48,353 nucleotides of DNA from an uncultured Clostridia bacterium. Lineage in GTDB: Bacteria > Bacillota > Clostridia > Oscillospirales > Ruminococcaceae. A program made the position numbers and the translations under genes. Below the pieces are notes generated by a model. That model was not told where the DNA came from. It ran no database searches and was given only the letters and a program-made list of their open reading frames with translations. Positions 16,507 through 41,889 of this stretch are shown in pieces (positions within the stretch are counted from its first letter, which is position 1; each line of letters opens with the position of its first letter). Location: NCBI GenBank assembly GCA_947629335.1, contig CANRDI010000015.1, positions 1 through 48,353 of the forward strand. The letters run 5' to 3'.

Positions 16507-17661
16507 CAGTGTACAGGGTAGTGTATAGTTAAATATAGGAAGTTGTATAATAAAAGTAGACACACGAAACAGAGAATGATATAATAAGTGAAGCAAAAGT
16601 ACAGTAAGGAGTTCAAAGTTACAGCGTGCAATTTGGTGATAAAGGACAAGCTAAAGCAGAAAAGATGAAAATAAGCGTATGAATGCTCTATCGTTGTACC
16701 AATTAAATGGCAATCAGGCGTTTATGGGTACAGGACACCCGGCACCCGTTGATGTGGAGTTGTGCAAATTGAAGCTGGAAAACGAAATCCTAAAAAAGCA
16801 GCGGTACACTTTGCGAAACACCCGGCAGGAAAATAGCTTTTGCCAAAAAGCGTTGAAAGGGTATGACAGCGGCATGGTATGCAGGATCTTGAAGGTGTCA
16901 AGGATTGCATATTACCGCAAGGCTAAGCAATATGAAGTGAAAAAATCCGAGATAGAAAGCGCGGTTATTCACTGTTTTCAGCAAAATAAAAGCAGGTATG
17001 GTCGATTAGGATCCGCAAGGCGCTTGAAATGCAAGGCATTACAGTTGAAGAATGGCGGTTTGCTCGAATTTTGAAGAAGAACGGTCTTATTGCAAAGAGC
17101 GGTCGAACAGGTAAGAGAAGGCTGCCTAAGCCGACGGAAGAGCAGTATATTGAAGAGAATTTAGTTAAAGACAAATTTTACGTAAAAGTGCCGAATATGT
17201 TGTGGTGTTCAGACATTTCCGAGCTTATATGTCGCAACGGCAAGCTTTATGTATGCAGGGTCATTTATGTGGCGACGCGCCGAATGGTGGACTGGGCAAT
17301 TGAGCGCCATCAGCGGCAGACTATTGTGCAGGACGTGTTCTTTATGGCAGTCGGAAGAAATCCGAATAGACTGAGTGGTGCAGTTTATCACAGTGAAAGG
17401 GGATGTCAGTATACAGCAAGGCAGACAAAAGAAATTGTAGAGAAATATAAATTCCGCAAGAGTATGTCGCGTCCCGGAACTCCGAGTGACAACCAATCGA
17501 GAGTTTTTGGCAAATGCTCGAATCAAAACCACGCGTGAAACGCGTGGTTTGCACTTGCGCTTCAAGCGCCTAGTACCGGCTTGCGCCTGAAGGCGCATTG
17601 AATGGTCTGGCAACCGCATCTCATTCACAAGCAGCCGCTTAAGCGGCTGCTTTTTTGCCTC

Positions 17662-18150
17662 TTAGTTCTTGCTACCCGTAAACGGGTCTATATACTCTTT
17701 CAACGTTAATTGGTCATTCGCTATGTCCTCTGCCAATTGATTGCGTATATACTCTTCTATCGCTTTTTTATTCTTTCCTACCGTATCTACGTAGTACCAG
17801 CGTTATTCGCCGCAGGCGAATAATGCGTGCACACAAAAGTGTCGGTTTCCATACTTGTACTTCAAATTCGCGTGCCTGTCAAATATCATCAACGAACTTT
17901 TTCCTTTCAGGTATCCCATAAAACTTGCTACACTTATGTTCGGCGGTATTTCTACTAACATATGTATATGGTCCGGACACGCTTCTGCTTCTATTATGTT
18001 TACTTTCTTCTGCTCACATAACTGCCGCAAAATTTTCCCTATGTCCGCTTTTAGCTGTCCATATATTACTTGCCTACGATATTTTGGTGCAAACACTATA
18101 TGGTACTTGCAATTCCACTTAGAATGTGATAAACTATGATTGTCAAGCAT
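17662..18150 (-). pseudogene. tnpA: IS200 TnpA (Y1 HUH transposase) with in-frame 27-bp insertion and stop
   Basis: The frame from ATG 18150 reads KYHIVFAPKYRRQVIYG, then the HUH motif CPDHIHMLVEIPP, then VASFMGYLKGKSS and YGNRHF. It then meets TAA (minus strand, 17805-17803). Reading on in the same frame gives YYVDTVGKNKKAIEEYIRNQ, which holds the catalytic-tyrosine helix region, and ends at TAA 17664-17662. The break is a 27-bp palindrome at 17800-17826. Removing it restores a 153-residue protein, the normal size for IS200 TnpA. The protein as it stands ends after 115 residues and lacks the tyrosine helix, so it should be inactive. Confidence 0.85.
17800..17826. repeat. 27-bp palindromic insertion in tnpA
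   Basis: GCGTTATTCGCC-GCA-GGCGAATAATGC is a 12-bp palindrome with one mismatch and a 3-nt centre. It interrupts a conserved part of tnpA without changing frame. A related half, GCGGATAATGCGTGCA, occurs at about 22422-22437. Similar tips (TATCCGCTTCGCGGATA) occur in the larger palindromic elements at 18464 and 35899. Confidence 0.7.
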
Positions 18151-18463
18151 TTGACATCCCCCTTTGTTTCTTAGATGTGGTCGCCAAACCTACACCTATT
18201 ATATCACAGCAGGATCTTTTTTTCCTTTTATCTAAAGATTTTTATTCCACCGCTTCAAGCGGTGGTTCCTTTGTGCTGAAGCGACAACGGGAGATGCCGG
18301 ATATCCGGCATCTCCCGTTTGAAGAAGCCAAGCTGGCTTTGGTGAAGTACATTGAGTTATACTATAACGCCACTCGACTGCATTCGTTTATTGGCTATTT
18401 GATTCCCAATGATTTTTTCACTGTTTTTAGTGTCCACAATACTTTACAAGTTTCGTAGAAATG

Positions 18464-18591
18464 TATCCGCTTCGCGGATAATATTAGATTGTTTTTAAAA
18501 GATAAGGTTAGGCTTGAACTCACGCGGGTTCAAACCTATGCGTTCCAATTCCGAAACAATCCGATAAAATAATCCGCCGAAGGCGGATACC
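18464..18591. repeat. Palindromic mini-element, copy 1
   Basis: The unit has a left tip hairpin TATCCGCTTCGCGGATA (18464-18480), a central hairpin TAGGCTTGAAC...GTTCAAACCTA (18509-18538) and a right tip AATCCGCCGAAGGCGGATACC (in two parts, 18571-18591). Flanking arms ATTAGATTGTTTTT and AAACAATCCGAT are mutually complementary in part. The same order of parts occurs at 42898-43053, and a left end only at 35884-35915. It is non-coding and MITE-like or REP-like. Confidence 0.7.
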
Positions 18592-18633
18592 TTAACTATT
18601 CACTATACACTTTACCCAGTACGCTGACAGCAA

Positions 18634-18656
18634 ACTCCCGCCTTTAAAGCGGGAGT
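18634..18656 (-). terminator. Terminator at the end of the large candidate RNA
   Basis: ACTCCCGC (18634-18641) and GCGGGAGT (18649-18656) form an 8-bp GC-rich stem, followed on the minus strand by TTTGCTG. The T-run is short, so it is only a moderate terminator. Confidence 0.45.
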
Positions 18657-19245
18657 CGATAATATTCAATTTTTAAATTACAAGTATTACATCGGACCAT
18701 ACCTCACCGTTCAATAAAATCCGCACATTAAACAAACTTTATCGGACATCGGACTCAATCCTTTCAGCATTTTTTCCCTTTCCACAGTCTTAAAGCGCAC
18801 ATCTCAATCACCTGATTCATAAGCTGATGTATATGTAAACGCCTTTTGGCGAACCCTGTCGCCGTAAGCGGTAGAAAATGTCTGCGGACTGCCTCACGCA
18901 AAGGTGTTAGATCACATCGGGCTATGCCCCGTACATAAGCGGATTTTGCGCTTTCCCGCGCAAATCATCGCCAAAAAATTAACCTCAGCGGTCAGCGGAT
19001 ACCGAATCCGCAGACTGTTCAGAAAATCCTTCGCTCATTTCCATCGGACTCGCTTCCTTTCTGCTTAAAGCTGAATTTTTTTGGCATTCAGACCCGTCGG
19101 ACTTTTCAGTTTTAAAACATCGGACATTGGCTGTATACCTACAGACCGCCCGTCTGCCCCGAAACCGAAACCCCTGTCGGAACGAACCGCCTCAGAGAAT
19201 TTCTCCTTAAAGGAAGATCCGCCATCGCGGTTTGTCTTTCCTTGT
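18634..19245 (-). ncRNA. Candidate large structured non-coding RNA (~0.6 kb)
   Basis: This block lacks a convincing reading frame on either strand but has its own minus-strand promoter and a terminal hairpin. The predicted RNA begins with a strong nested hairpin (19243-19210: AAGGAA...TTCCTT enclosing CCGC-GATG-GCGG). It contains a perfect 9-bp long-range helix, GTCTGCGGA (19015-19007) with TCCGCAGAC (18888-18880), enclosing a 118-nt multi-branched part with the hairpin TTTGCGC/GCGCAAA (18964-18945). Local hairpins include CAGAC-GTCTG, CTGT-ACAG and TTCGCC-AAAA-GGCG. The octamer GTCCGATG occurs four times. Size and ornate structure recall large bacterial RNAs of the ROOL/OLE/GOLLD kind, but I cannot assign it. 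It lacks RNase P, tmRNA, SRP and rRNA signatures. Confidence 0.55.
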
Positions 19246-19251
19246 GATTAT

Positions 19252-19280
19252 ATGATAACATATTTTTTGTTAAAAGTCAA
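19252..19280 (-). promoter_or_regulatory. Promoter of the large candidate RNA
   Basis: On the minus strand TTGACT (19280-19275) and TATCAT (19257-19252) are 17 bp apart. The predicted start near 19245 falls directly at the first hairpin of the candidate RNA. Confidence 0.6.
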
Positions 19281-19397
19281 TAGAAGTTTTTAATTTTTTT
19301 GTTGTCATTTTGTATATAATTTTCAAATATCTTTTGTTCAAACTAATGATAATTTCGTAAAAGCCGCGTAAAATGGGATTTTTTCAGAATTTACCTA

Positions 19398-19426
19398 TTG
19401 ACAGCGGCGAAGAAATAGTGTAAAAT
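19398..19426 (+). promoter_or_regulatory. Promoter of the DUF1292 gene
   Basis: TTGACA (19398-19403) and TAAAAT (19421-19426) are separated by 17 bp. Confidence 0.75.
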
Positions 19427-19483
19427 AATATAGTCGGCGTTATTCATCAAACGAAAATCCTGCGCCGGAAAGGCGGAAAAAAT

Positions 19484-19807
19484 ATGTCTGAAAGCAACGG
19501 TGCATTTCTTGATGAAGAAGAGGGTATAATTGAACTGGAGGACGAAGAAGGAAACGTCACGAGGTTCGAGTTTGTGGATCAGGCGGAATTTAACGGCACG
19601 ATATACTACGCTCTTATCCCTGATGATTATGACGAAAACGACGACGATACGGCTCAGTTTGTTGTTTTGAAACAGCAGGAAGCGAACGGCGATATAATGT
19701 TGGCTACTGTAGATGACGACGACGAATATAATGCCGTAGGGGAGATGTTTTTGAAAAGGTTTTCGGAGCTTCCGGATCTTGAAGAGCCGGAGGAAACCGA
19801 CGGGTAA
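19484..19807 (+). CDS. DUF1292 family protein (YrzB-like)
   Basis: The 107-residue, strongly acidic protein shows the DUF1292 pattern: IIELEDEEGNVTRFEFVD, then YYALIPDD, then FVVLKQQE and a DDDEYNAVGEMFLKRF end. These proteins are common in Firmicutes, often next to ruvX, and have no known function. Here the gene stands alone, with its own promoter and an AAGGCGG ribosome site. The divergently transcribed neighbour is the large candidate RNA. Confidence 0.85.
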   Translation: MSESNGAFLDEEEGIIELEDEEGNVTRFEFVDQAEFNGTIYYALIPDDYDENDDDTAQFVVLKQQEANGDIMLATVDDDDEYNAVGEMFLKRFSELPDLEEPEETDG

Positions 19808-19824
19808 TTTGTTTACATACTGCC

Positions 19825-19853
19825 TTGCAGCGCGAATGTGTGCTGTTTATAAT
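19825..19853 (+). promoter_or_regulatory. Promoter of a candidate small RNA
   Basis: TTGCAG (19825-19830) and TATAAT (19848-19853) are separated by 17 bp, downstream of the DUF1292 stop codon and upstream of a structured gene-free stretch. Confidence 0.6.
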
Positions 19854-19859
19854 CCGAAC

Positions 19860-20057
19860 ACGTTGTAAAAGGGATTTCGGCTCCGACAGCGGATTGCAGA
19901 CCTCCTGTACTCATTTTATGAGACAGTCGGCGGGAGCGTGAACCTGTTGGGCGATTTTACCCACCCTGCTATTTGCGGGTTTTATATTGCATCTTACGGC
20001 AAGGCGGTACAATTTAAAAAACAAAAGCGGTGGAATTTTTCTGCCGCTTTTTGTTTT
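19860..20057 (+). ncRNA. Candidate ~200-nt small RNA
   Basis: Between its own promoter and an intrinsic terminator lies about 200 nt with no coding frame. An apical hairpin CTGT(A)CTCAT-TTT-ATGAG(A)CAG (about 19904-19926) sits on a helix GCTCCGAC/GTCGG..AGC, followed by TGGG-loop-CCCA. Bases GTTGTA near the 5' end can pair with TACAAT near 20008. The overall rod shape and length would suit a 6S-like RNA, but no diagnostic motif was recognised. The following gene has its own promoter, so this is not simply its leader. Confidence 0.45.
20021..20057 (+). terminator. Terminator of the candidate small RNA
   Basis: ACAAAAGCGG (20021-20030) pairs with CCGCTTTTTGT (20044-20054) and is followed by more T residues. 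Confidence 0.8.
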
Positions 20058-39030: not shown

Positions 39031-41889
39031 ATGAAATTCAAAAAAAACAAGCTCATTGCGGTCATTGCCGCTTCGGCGGTCTTATTATCGGGCTGTGAAA
39101 GGAGTATACAGCGCCTTGATTTTTCGGACATTGGACATGGCGGATCGGGCGTCTCGTCAAACAGCTCGTCAACAAACAATGTTTCCGAAAGTTCTTCGGA
39201 AGGCTCGAACGGTTCTTCTTCGGTGAACGAGGAAAACCCCGAAAGCTCGTCTGCGGAAAGTTCTTCCGAAACTTCAAGCCCGTCAAACGGTTCTTCGTCC
39301 TCAGCTCCTTCGAGCAGTTCAAAGCCTTCGGGAAATAATTCCTCAAGTTCAGCTTCGGGCAGTTCTTCGGCAAGTCCATCGTCAAGTTCTTCCAACAAGC
39401 CCTCGTCAAGTTCTTCCAACAAACCCTCCGCAAGTTCTTCAAGCAGCACAAAACCTTCGGGCAGCGGACTTTCTCCGAGCGGAACAGGAACGAGCGGAAC
39501 TGCCTCGACGGGTAAATTCAACTATGGCGAGGCGCTGCAAAAGTCGATACTTTTCTATGAATTGCAGAGAAGCGGCGACATTGACGAGAAAACAATAAGA
39601 ACAAACTGGCGCGGCGACAGCGGTATGAACGACGGCGCGGACGTTGGGCTTGACCTTACGGGCGGGCTTTACGACGCGGGAGATAACGTAAAATTCAATC
39701 TGCCTATGGCGTACACCGCGACTGTCCTTGCGTGGAGCGTCTACGAGGACAAGGACGCATATGAAAAAAGCGGGCAGTTGAGCTACGCCCTCGCAAATAT
39801 AAAGTGGATCTGCGATTATCTCATAAAATGCCACCCCGAAGCAAATGTTTATTACTATCAAGTAGGAAACGGAAGCGCCGACCACGCATGGTGGGGTCCC
39901 GCAGAAGTTATGCAGATGGACAGACCCGCGTATAAAGTGGATAAGAACAACCCCGGTTCTACTGTCGCAGGAGAAGCTGCGGCGGCGCTGGCGGCTTGCG
40001 CGGCAGTTTATAAGAATATAGACAAGTCATATTCGGATAAATGCCTAAAACACGCGAAAGAGCTGTACAACTTTGCGGAAACTACCCACAGCGACGCGGG
40101 TTATACCGCCGCACAGGGCTTTTATAACAGTTGGAGCGGCTATCAGGACGAACTTGCATGGGCGGCGACATGGATATACATAGCAACAAACGACAACTCT
40201 TGGCTCACAAAAGCTAAAACCAACGAAAGCAAACTTAACGGCGACCCTCAATGGACGCTCTGCTGGGACGATAAATTTATCGGCGTAGAGTGCCTGCTTG
40301 CAAATCTCACGGGCGACAGCAAGTATAAAACTAAACTTGAACAAAGCCTCGACTGGTGGTGTAACGGCGCAAAAGGCTTTACTCCGAAGGGTCTTGCATG
40401 GCTGGATACATGGGGAAGTCTGAGATATGCAACGACTGCGGCGTTTATCGCGGCAAGCTATGCCGAGGGCGGAAATTGCCCGTCAAATAAAGTGCAGAAG
40501 TATATGAACTTCTGCGAAAGTCAGATAAATTATGCCTTGGGTTCTTCGGGCAGGAGCTTTATGGTCGGATTTGGCACAAATCCCCCGCAGCACCCCCACC
40601 ACCGCACTGCACAAGGTTCTTGGGCGGACAATATGAACGAGCCGAATTATCACCGCCACACGCTCTACGGCGCGCTTGTCGGCGGGCCGAGCCAGTCTGA
40701 CGGCTATAACGACACCGTAAGCGACTATACCGCAAACGAGGTTGCGTGCGACTATAATGCGGGATTTACGGGCGCGCTCGCAAAAATGTACAACAAATAC
40801 GGCGGCAAGACAATATCAAACTTCGGTGCGGTCGAAACAGTCGGCGAAGAAATGTATGTCGAGTATTCGCAAAATGCCACGGGAAACGACTTTACCGAGA
40901 TAAAGGCTATGGTCTACAACAAATCCGCGTGGCCCGCAAGAGTTGCAGACAACTTAGAGCTTCGTTATTTTGTGAACCTTTCGGAGCTGTCCGACCCGTC
41001 GAGCGTTAAAGTCAGCTTTAACTACAACAACGGCGCGAAGTTTGGCGGTCTTTATGAGTGGGACAAGAAAAACGGAATTTATTACGTCAGCATTGACTTT
41101 TCGGGTGTCAAGATCTATCCGGGCGGTCAGAGCGCGTTTAAAAAGGAAGTTCAGTTCAGAATGAGCGCGGCGGGCTGGGATCCGTCAAACGACCCCTCGT
41201 ATAAGGAGCTTGTCGGGACGAACGGTTCAAGCCTTATAAAAGCGGTAAGCTGCGGACTGTATGAGGGCGGAAAGCTCGTTTTCGGAACAGAGCCGAACGG
41301 AAAATCATCGGGAATTGTAACTCCGAGCAGTTCTTCAAGCTCATCAAGCAAGCCGCAAACGCCTTCATCAAGCTCGTCCTCAAAACCGAGCACTCCTCAA
41401 AGCTCGTCATCAAGCTCATCAACTCCATCAACTCCTCCTGCAAACAAGGGAGTAGCGGTTACGCTGTCGCAAAGCCCGACAAGCGGAACAACGGGCAATA
41501 TCCAGTTTACAGTAAAAATTACCAACAATACGGGCGCTGACATTGACCTGTCAAAACTTGAGATAGACTATTTCTTCACGAAAGACAGCGCGAAAGAGCT
41601 TGCGTTTGACTGTTATTATGCTTGTGTTTCAGGCAGCTCATACGCCGCGATAACCGATAAGATAAGCGCGTCATATTCGAGCGCTTCGGGAACTAACACC
41701 GACACAAAATGTGCTGTCAAAATAAGTTCCGGAACGCTCAAAAACGGAGATACTGCTGAAATTCAGGCTAACATAAGGGATAAAAACTGGCAGCAAAGCC
41801 TGAACCCTGCAAACGACTTCTCCTGCGGCAATGCCGACAATATCTGCATAACCAACAACGGCACAGTTATCTACGGTCGCAAACCCTGA
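39031..41889 (+). CDS. GH9 cellulase lipoprotein with CBM3 modules
   Basis: The 952-residue protein has a signal peptide with lipobox VLLSGC (Cys22), so it should be anchored to the cell surface. Order of parts: a serine-rich linker (about 38-160), a GH9 catalytic domain (about 164-610) with the Asp pair in DAGDNVKFN (215, 218) and the acid Glu570 in NEVACDYNAGF, a CBM3c-type domain (about 620-765), a second Ser/Pro linker (about 770-810), and a C-terminal CBM3-like domain (about 812-952). GH9-CBM3c enzymes are usually processive endoglucanases. There is no dockerin, so it is not a cellulosome component. GGAGAG precedes ATG 39031. Confidence 0.93.
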   Translation: MKFKKNKLIAVIAASAVLLSGCERSIQRLDFSDIGHGGSGVSSNSSSTNNVSESSSEGSNGSSSVNEENPESSSAESSSETSSPSNGSSSSAPSSSSKPSGNNSSSSASGSSSASPSSSSSNKPSSSSSNKPSASSSSSTKPSGSGLSPSGTGTSGTASTGKFNYGEALQKSILFYELQRSGDIDEKTIRTNWRGDSGMNDGADVGLDLTGGLYDAGDNVKFNLPMAYTATVLAWSVYEDKDAYEKSGQLSYALANIKWICDYLIKCHPEANVYYYQVGNGSADHAWWGPAEVMQMDRPAYKVDKNNPGSTVAGEAAAALAACAAVYKNIDKSYSDKCLKHAKELYNFAETTHSDAGYTAAQGFYNSWSGYQDELAWAATWIYIATNDNSWLTKAKTNESKLNGDPQWTLCWDDKFIGVECLLANLTGDSKYKTKLEQSLDWWCNGAKGFTPKGLAWLDTWGSLRYATTAAFIAASYAEGGNCPSNKVQKYMNFCESQINYALGSSGRSFMVGFGTNPPQHPHHRTAQGSWADNMNEPNYHRHTLYGALVGGPSQSDGYNDTVSDYTANEVACDYNAGFTGALAKMYNKYGGKTISNFGAVETVGEEMYVEYSQNATGNDFTEIKAMVYNKSAWPARVADNLELRYFVNLSELSDPSSVKVSFNYNNGAKFGGLYEWDKKNGIYYVSIDFSGVKIYPGGQSAFKKEVQFRMSAAGWDPSNDPSYKELVGTNGSSLIKAVSCGLYEGGKLVFGTEPNGKSSGIVTPSSSSSSSSKPQTPSSSSSSKPSTPQSSSSSSSTPSTPPANKGVAVTLSQSPTSGTTGNIQFTVKITNNTGADIDLSKLEIDYFFTKDSAKELAFDCYYACVSGSSYAAITDKISASYSSASGTNTDTKCAVKISSGTLKNGDTAEIQANIRDKNWQQSLNPANDFSCGNADNICITNNGTVIYGRKP

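Follow-up and report, generated by a model that had tools for sequence, protein, structure and literature searches.

The window analysed here, 48,353 nucleotides of DNA from an uncultured Clostridia bacterium assigned to the Ruminococcaceae, contains an intergenic block from whose minus strand a putative RNA, here called the array RNA, would be transcribed. It diverges from a DUF1292 gene that is directly followed by a 6S RNA, and it combines helices with a series of short open reading frames (ORFs). The features, in the 5' to 3' order of the minus strand after the two neighbours, are as follows.

19484..19807, plus strand: DUF1292 gene, the divergent neighbour (PF06949, 55 bits)
19814..20014, plus strand: 6S RNA directly after DUF1292 (38.4 bits, below the Rfam gathering score of 46.4; E 4.1e-6)
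19252..19280, minus strand: promoter TTGACT-N17-TATCAT, with A-rich DNA upstream, as in the genus
18632..19243, minus strand: predicted array RNA of ~612 nt, starting near AAGGAAAG and finishing at the terminal stem, both ends placed from the sequence
19210..19243, minus strand: 5' nested hairpin in which the AAGGAA 5' end is paired (sequence and folding)
19129..19147, minus strand: hairpin GGTCTGTAGGTATACAGCC, stem letters varying and pairing kept in near relatives (by eye)
19045..19064, minus strand: Module L, extended Shine-Dalgarno GCAGAAAGGAAGCGAGTCCG immediately 5' of AUG (sequence)
18985..19044, minus strand: ORF-L, 19 codons (MEMSEGFSEQSADSVSADR), crossing the 5' strand of the long-range helix (sequence)
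19007..19015, minus strand: long-range helix P1, 5' strand (covariation, RNAalifold and sequence)
18938..18972, minus strand: inner hairpin P2, the best-covarying helix, with both sides changed in 10 of 11 pairs (also proposed by RNAalifold)
18919..18930, minus strand: hairpin P3, 67.5% of cells paired in this alignment (not proposed by RNAalifold)
18880..18888, minus strand: long-range helix P1, 3' strand (covariation, RNAalifold and sequence)
18792..18843, minus strand: helix P5, GGCGTTTACAT / ATGTGCGC(TTT), covering the ORF4 start codon (not proposed by RNAalifold)
18764..18802, minus strand: ORF4, 12 codons (MCALRLWKGKKC), after CAGGTGATTGAG, its stop abutting the next module's Shine-Dalgarno (sequence)
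18711..18768, minus strand: Module 5, GCTGAAAGGATTGAGTCCG and ORF5 of 12 codons (MSDKVCLMCGFY) (sequence)
18687..18708, minus strand: Module 6, GGTGAGGTATGGTCCG and the start-stop AUGUAA (sequence)
18632..18656, minus strand: terminal stem, terminator-like, with a poor T-run in the window copy (sequence)

The sequence-only reading of this stretch had proposed a large structured RNA with its own promoter, and the end signals it named are in place. TTGACT (19280-19275) and TATCAT (19257-19252) are separated by 17 nt on the minus strand and match 10 of 12 consensus bases, and the 5' nested hairpin (19243-19210) and the terminal stem (18656-18632) were likewise located. The stem has no good T-run and was unscored in a terminator scan, whose sole match lies at 18588-18572. 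With a promoter of its own and an end stem that is conserved, the array RNA would be a stand-alone transcription unit, and from these signals we infer its transcription as drawn. The same reading had seen no reading frame of note; no long ORF covers the block, but the short ones (ORF-L, ORF5 and AUGUAA) had been overlooked. The window also holds the remains of an IS3-type element (16679-18455), of which rve (17029-17538) and, weakly, rve_2 (18126-18455) are recognised. Between these two pieces lies a minus-strand Y1 (IS200-like) transposase (17803-18150), and the rve_2 remnant contains a perfect, loopless 17-bp palindrome (18286-18319).

Four GTCCGATG octamers had been noticed in the block, and all lie on the minus strand (18690-18697, 18747-18754, 19042-19049 and 19118-19125). 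The pattern GTCCRATG occurs five times in the window (the fifth copy at 39129), where 1.93 would be expected; a count of five came up in 2 of 100 shuffles. Three of the four octamers contain an AUG after a strong Shine-Dalgarno, starting ORF-L, ORF5 and AUGUAA, and the fourth (19118-19125), the only one 5' of ORF-L, has an AUG and a 2-codon ORF without a good Shine-Dalgarno. ORF4 completes the set of short ORFs in the window copy. A role of the octamers as loop motifs was rejected, as they appear instead as the start-proximal ends of predicted ribosome-binding modules followed by short ORFs. Read from the homologues, the plan of a module is GAAAGGAG or a like sequence, separated by a short spacer from TCC(A/G/C)ATG and a short ORF, with GTCCGATG as the end of the unit. 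The general form is a Shine-Dalgarno and (T/A)CC(R)AUG at initiation spacing. Over half of the modules meet a stop within the next 1-3 codons, and besides the modules there is usually one ORF of ~13-29 codons.

Rfam searches of the block gave no match at gathering score. Up to E = 5, the interval 18150-19480 gave eight chance-level matches (best E 0.95), and none of these was ROOL, OLE or GOLLD, the large RNAs to which a kinship had been suggested. At gathering thresholds, the array RNAs of 20 homologous loci also gave no match to ROOL, OLE, GOLLD or raiA. Two further identities were rejected: 6S RNA, as the array RNA has no RF00013 match up to E = 5 and a 6S RNA was found separately at 19814-20014 on the plus strand, and tmRNA, as that of the genome lies elsewhere (G000:C8:16534-16881, 161 bits).

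The element is single-copy in its genome, where the only other match is a 46-nt promoter-like piece. Elsewhere in the genus, 39 of 42 genomes carry it; the three that lack it are 73-89% complete. Outside the genus, the same search matched five genomes with promoter- or end-sized pieces only. In total, 40 loci were extracted (L001 and 39 others), of which L028 is interrupted by a contig end, and L029 was missed by the promoter rule yet has the element. The common order in the genus is two ORFs of 2-3 codons, ORF-L (16-23 codons), ORF4 (9-15 codons, starting in P5), ORF5 (11-12 codons, or 3) and a last module that is often AUG-stop. Each of 39 genus RNAs has 2-6 TCC-type modules, with five in 24 of them, and a stop directly follows the ATG in 33 of 173 module ATGs. 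Across the 40 genus loci, the genes 3' of the array RNA are common only to small groups of near relatives. A leader with a mini-ORF acting in cis was rejected on this ground, as clustering of the downstream ORFs gave no constant downstream gene.

The fold was examined in an alignment of 30 of 38 extracted genus sequences; L005, L007, L012, L013, L019, L023 and L029 were left out as near-duplicates and L039 for a long insertion, and L041 failed the extraction rule. The perfect 9-bp helix that had been pointed out, pairing GTCTGCGGA (19015-19007) with TCCGCAGAC (18888-18880) across 118 nt of the minus strand, corresponds to P1, of which 96.6% of cells are paired, with two covarying and five invariant pairs. 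P5 consists of two segments, one 89.2% paired with two of five pairs changed on both sides, the other 95.7% paired with none changed. Over all named helices 89.8% of cells are paired, a percentage favoured by the derivation of the structure partly from L001 and L016. Homologues with compensatory changes, named as a check on the proposed RNA, were found: 17 of 33 pairs changed on both sides, and the covariation score of 0.255 exceeded every one of 500 shuffles (mean 0.157) and all slid versions (at most 0.076). RNAalifold recovered P1 and P2 unaided and proposed other pairs in place of P3 and P5, and the fold energy of the minus strand in the window was better than that of shuffles (z = -2.44, 20 shuffles only). 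By these compensatory changes in a shared fold, the array RNA is a structured non-coding RNA in the general sense. Of the original proposal, the putative large structured RNA with homologues, a good promoter and no Rfam match thus stood, whereas the likeness to ROOL, OLE and GOLLD and the role given to the octamers did not.

In the other genera read, the central fold of the genus is not recognisable by eye, though the modules persist there, and it is the row of initiation modules, more than the elaborate fold, that appears to define the conserved element. These observations bear on the explanation that the mini-ORFs are only shields, whose parked ribosomes would protect the RNA from nucleases, the function lying in the structured centre or in contacts with other RNAs. 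Covariation of the central fold in the genus fits such a role, and in the available text of one source mRNAs are reported to be protected by ribosomes that occupy mini-ORFs (PMC8708949). Yet the modules outlast the fold as read by eye, and in locus L123 of a second family the RNA comprises little beyond promoter, modules and terminal stem, so we regard pure shielding as unlikely, if deserving some weight.

ORF-L runs into the 5' strand of P1, and the distance from its ATG to the helix is 30 nt in 33, 27 nt in three, 33 nt in two and 28 nt in one of 39 RNAs. The distance is a multiple of three in 38 of 39 RNAs, so that members of the genus preserve the reading frame, whereas, judged by eye, the common GCGGCTCG stretch is read in different frames in different genera. 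It could be speculated that translation of ORF-L opens the long-range helix and thereby reports on translation or on a substrate, much as leader peptides do in attenuation; the output would lie in the array RNA or the next gene. The kept frame would suit such a switch, as would the covering of the ORF4 start by P5 and the abutting of the ORF4 stop on the next Shine-Dalgarno. However, the RNA has its own end stem, the downstream genes are common only to close relatives in small groups, ORF-L shows by eye no stretch of one repeated codon, and ORF-L peptides differ between genera. A translation-driven switch therefore seems to us rather unlikely.

The peptides themselves show recurrent features in part. 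ORF-L often starts M(E/D)..E, and ORF4 of the genus often reads MC(A/E)L...GK(F/Y), while peptides of other genera are unalike beyond a frequent acidic start. Codon variability in ORF-L has no third-position excess (0.97, 1.22 and 1.18 bits), and pN/pS over the 9-11 codons after the start lay within the column-permuted range for ORF-L (0.77 vs 0.98, n = 30), ORF4 (0.79 vs 1.10) and ORF5 (0.93 vs 1.09; n = 10 each), all tests of low power. Strong-Shine-Dalgarno ORFs of 8-20 codons outside TCC modules have a mean net charge of 1.82 in the family loci, against 1.14 without a Shine-Dalgarno; the same comparison in the genus gave 1.45 and 1.53. We conclude that start and stop signals appear to be kept and that the peptides are not detectably selected, the sequences being short and the tests weak. 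The array RNA might alternatively serve as an mRNA for several micropeptides, which could be formyl-methionyl di- and tripeptides, as its strong initiation signals, the recurrent ORF-L and ORF4 motifs and the somewhat more basic peptides of the family loci (not the genus) would allow. Such a messenger is improbable, given that many ORFs have only 1-2 codons, that peptides are unalike across genera, that some modules lack a start codon and that pN/pS, at low power, lay within the range of the permuted controls.

The exact start pattern of ORF-L was found in 30 stretches among 84,980 species genomes, whose titles name Oscillospiraceae, Clostridia or Ruminiclostridium bins, except for one Bacteroides and one Saprospiraceae. 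Of 13 stretches read, 12 are the array RNA and the Saprospiraceae one is a chance match, and a DUF1292 gene lies near 7 of 10 further loci from this pattern search. The DUF1292 gene, present in 82 of 90 family genomes and in 112 of 117 of an order-wide draw, was used as the anchor of a survey. A locus counted as positive if the strand divergent from DUF1292 carried two or more modules whose ORFs do not exceed 29 codons. The survey comprised 84 family loci (80 of 81 other family genomes and four from the order-wide draw), six loci of a second family (f24) and 49 loci of 22 other families, the last two sets being a subset of the order-wide matches. Arrays were found in 42 of 84 family loci, three of six in the second family and none of 49 in the 22 other families; the module rule was built on the genus and the first other genera read and is not fully independent of the family loci. 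The remaining 42 family loci have fewer than two modules at this site, and 42 of 84 is a lower bound, since in at least one genome (G052) the array (L230) and DUF1292 lie on different contigs (C8 and C23, respectively). Two or more modules on the opposite strand were seen in none of the 84, six and 49 loci. Individual modules number 136 on the RNA strand and five on the opposite strand in the family loci, against two and two in the 49 loci of other families.

All 45 positive loci have a promoter before the first module that matches 10-12 of 12 consensus bases (mean 11.0), while an equal length of the opposite strand scores 6-10. Across genera, the plan of an ORF of ~13-29 codons followed by ORFs of 1-3 codons, e.g., AUG UAC UAA or AUG AAA UAG, recurs. 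A conserved RNA with a strong promoter spans at least two taxonomic families and has no match in Rfam 15, and the array RNA, defined by a promoter and serial modules, with a covarying fold inside the genus, is well supported as a conserved sequence class. Besides L230, a motif search gave module arrays in L234 (G268:C1) and L249 (G269:C38). On the reverse strand of L054, 3' of ORF-L, three nearly identical modules, each with a short ORF (GAGTGATTCCAATGGAAGGCGAATACTTACC..), stand in tandem, as if modules multiplied by tandem duplication. In the 3' part of the array region of L077, three hairpins carry GGAGGATGGTTCCCTC, with a module-like core in the stem. An element AATTGAATA, near the 3' end in the genus, occurs on the RNA strand of 15 of 45 positive loci and on the other strand of none.

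By a longest-ORF rule, a divergent DUF1292 gene stands beside 21 of the 40 genus loci, another 13 have an overlapping frame and six have neither. The 6S RNA scored above gathering in 8 of 20 and 11 of 20 loci, in all 19 cases within ~0.4 kb downstream on the DUF1292 strand, and three further genus genomes have a 6S RNA beside the array locus just under the cut-off (43.6-46.2 bits). The array RNA is thus divergent from a DUF1292-6S unit. The linkage of 6S and DUF1292 also occurs without an array, in four module-less family loci and three loci of other families, and the closeness of the array RNA to 6S may therefore be mere locality.

Module ATGs open ORFs of at most three codons far more often than other ATGs of the same RNAs in the genus (102/173 vs 33/296) and in the family loci (70/126 vs 116/776), counts that overstate the evidence because related sequences are not independent. 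The family loci had also been selected on having two or more ORFs no longer than 29 codons, a choice that favours short ones. Restriction to ORFs of at most 30 codons gave 102/172 vs 33/242 and 70/124 vs 116/633, respectively. Start-to-start distances have a floor near 48-52 nt: only 2 of 93 distances in 45 loci fall below 46 nt, against 15 expected from uniform placement, and none of 5000 runs was as low. This floor fits what separate ribosome footprints would need, and it could also arise from a fixed length of one hairpin-plus-module unit. Second codons depend on the clade: the commonest are TAC and AAA in the family loci, but GGT and GAA for the genus, and the modules therefore do not seem directed at any one elongator tRNA. 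This variation counts against a minigene-type control by toxicity, in which repeated start-stop translation would drain peptidyl-tRNA or initiator tRNA; very short ORFs after a strong Shine-Dalgarno would suit it, and known minigenes are of this length in the available part of PMC8708949, but we consider it very improbable.

By eye, GGNGTGAGTCC is retained without a start codon in ~20 modules at 15 loci. Start-less variants of the form GGnGTGAGTCC(A/G) lie upstream of DUF1292 in L095, L096, L099, L102, L123, L145, L154, L219 and others, and many have CC next and, as judged by eye, a small hairpin after that. Such modules point to 16S-like pairing, or to a protein, over peptides. The latter option, in which an unknown protein would bind the GUGAGUCC boxes and its preferred site would give rise to start codons and stops only incidentally, draws on the unusually constant module spacer AGTCC and on a motif nearly confined to the array RNA in its genome (GGN5GTCCRATG has three matches in 2.48 Mb, one of them in the array RNA). 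It leaves the excess of stops within three codons of the AUG and the initiation spacing unexplained, and we judge it rather unlikely.

The 16S 3' end reads GGCTGGATCACCTCCTTTCT in nine operon copies of six relatives of other genera, and modules such as AGAAAGGCGGTGATTCC are near-complementary to this tail. The best duplex with the tail includes AUG-adjacent bases in 313 of 316 modules. Mean duplex energies are -15.0 for genus modules (n = 177) and -14.3 for family modules (n = 139), against -10.6 for 29 long ORFs of the window and -11.7 for 104 of the first 60 loci. The modules are thus 2.6-4.4 kcal/mol better than long ORFs whose best candidate start was taken, a difference biased upward by a module rule that requires a Shine-Dalgarno and CC. 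When two rRNA operons were scanned, the tail was in each the top partner for two of four module consensi. The window-type module pairs better with another 16S site (-23.5) than with the tail, and for AAAAGGTGAGTCCAATG the tail is outside the top four. In Staphylococcus aureus, extended start-proximal Shine-Dalgarno helices are described by cryo-EM and profiling in the available text of a 2026 study, which links such helices with the fact that bS21 is shorter in Firmicutes (PMC13009471).

Strong ribosome sites of which many meet a stop a few codons on may hold or count ribosomes rather than make protein. We tentatively prefer, at somewhat below even confidence, the reading that the array RNA is a multivalent ribosome-binding RNA that holds or recycles ribosomes, a translational analogue of 6S RNA. 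On this proposal, 30S subunits or initiating ribosomes would pair with the modules, the 16S 3' tail forming an extended helix; they would start there and terminate at once while still tethered, and so be held on or recycled along the array RNA instead of elongating. The array RNA may thereby buffer, sequester or sense free ribosomes, as 6S RNA does for RNA polymerase, and ribosomes that traverse ORF-L would unpair the long-range helix, which could switch the fold. The reading is favoured by the strand bias of the modules, their excess of early stops, the floor in start-to-start distances, the strong 16S duplexes, the start-less variants, the promoters of all 45 loci, the lack of detected coding selection, the neighbouring 6S RNA and the S. 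aureus precedents of extended Shine-Dalgarno helices and of SprF1. Against it weigh the selection bias in modules and loci, the mixed outcome of the rRNA scan, the other possible origin of the spacing floor, the 6S-DUF1292 linkage without an array and the 42 family loci with fewer than two modules. More speculative, and on balance doubtful, is the wider idea of a new class in gut Oscillospiraceae-type bacteria in which decoy start sites with immediate stops capture ribosomes and, together with DUF1292 and 6S, one locus controls the supply of the transcription and translation machines. If true, bacteria would possess a dedicated RNA whose serial start-stop sites compete for ribosomes. Whatever the mechanism, the array RNA offers a clean test bed for the effect of AUG-stop modules on ribosomes.

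A literature search found no description of an RNA competing for ribosomes via serial start-stop sites, and several known systems share parts of the design. ROOL, OLE and GOLLD are long structured intergenic RNAs. In this the array RNA is like them, although no covariance model of ROOL, OLE, GOLLD or raiA/ModT matches it up to E = 5. 6S RNA imitates a promoter and thereby engages RNA polymerase. The array RNA resembles 6S RNA (SsrS, RF00013) in its proposed logic only, substrate mimicry, with start signals in place of a promoter; the target differs, and the 6S RNA is detected separately beside it, adjoining DUF1292 on the opposite side. As for raiA/ModT, the source text available likewise describes a long structured intergenic RNA. 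SprF1 of S. aureus, compared by description only, is a non-coding RNA that binds ribosomes through a purine-rich stretch, competes with mRNA and attenuates initiation, as proposed for the array RNA, but it is a type I antitoxin, and the available part of its description mentions no array of start-stop ORFs (PMC8938821). Bacterial minigenes or mini-ORFs are, like the modules, ORFs of two to six codons after a Shine-Dalgarno; as far as the available text of the source describes them, they lie in the leader of a regulated gene, whereas the array RNA carries 2-6 modules in series, stands alone and has changing downstream genes (PMC8708949). Finally, the extended Shine-Dalgarno sites of S. aureus share with the modules a start-proximal pairing with the 16S tail beyond GGAGG; in the part of that study available they belong to mRNAs and uORFs, whereas the array RNA sets its modules in series, many of them ending at once in stops (PMC13009471).
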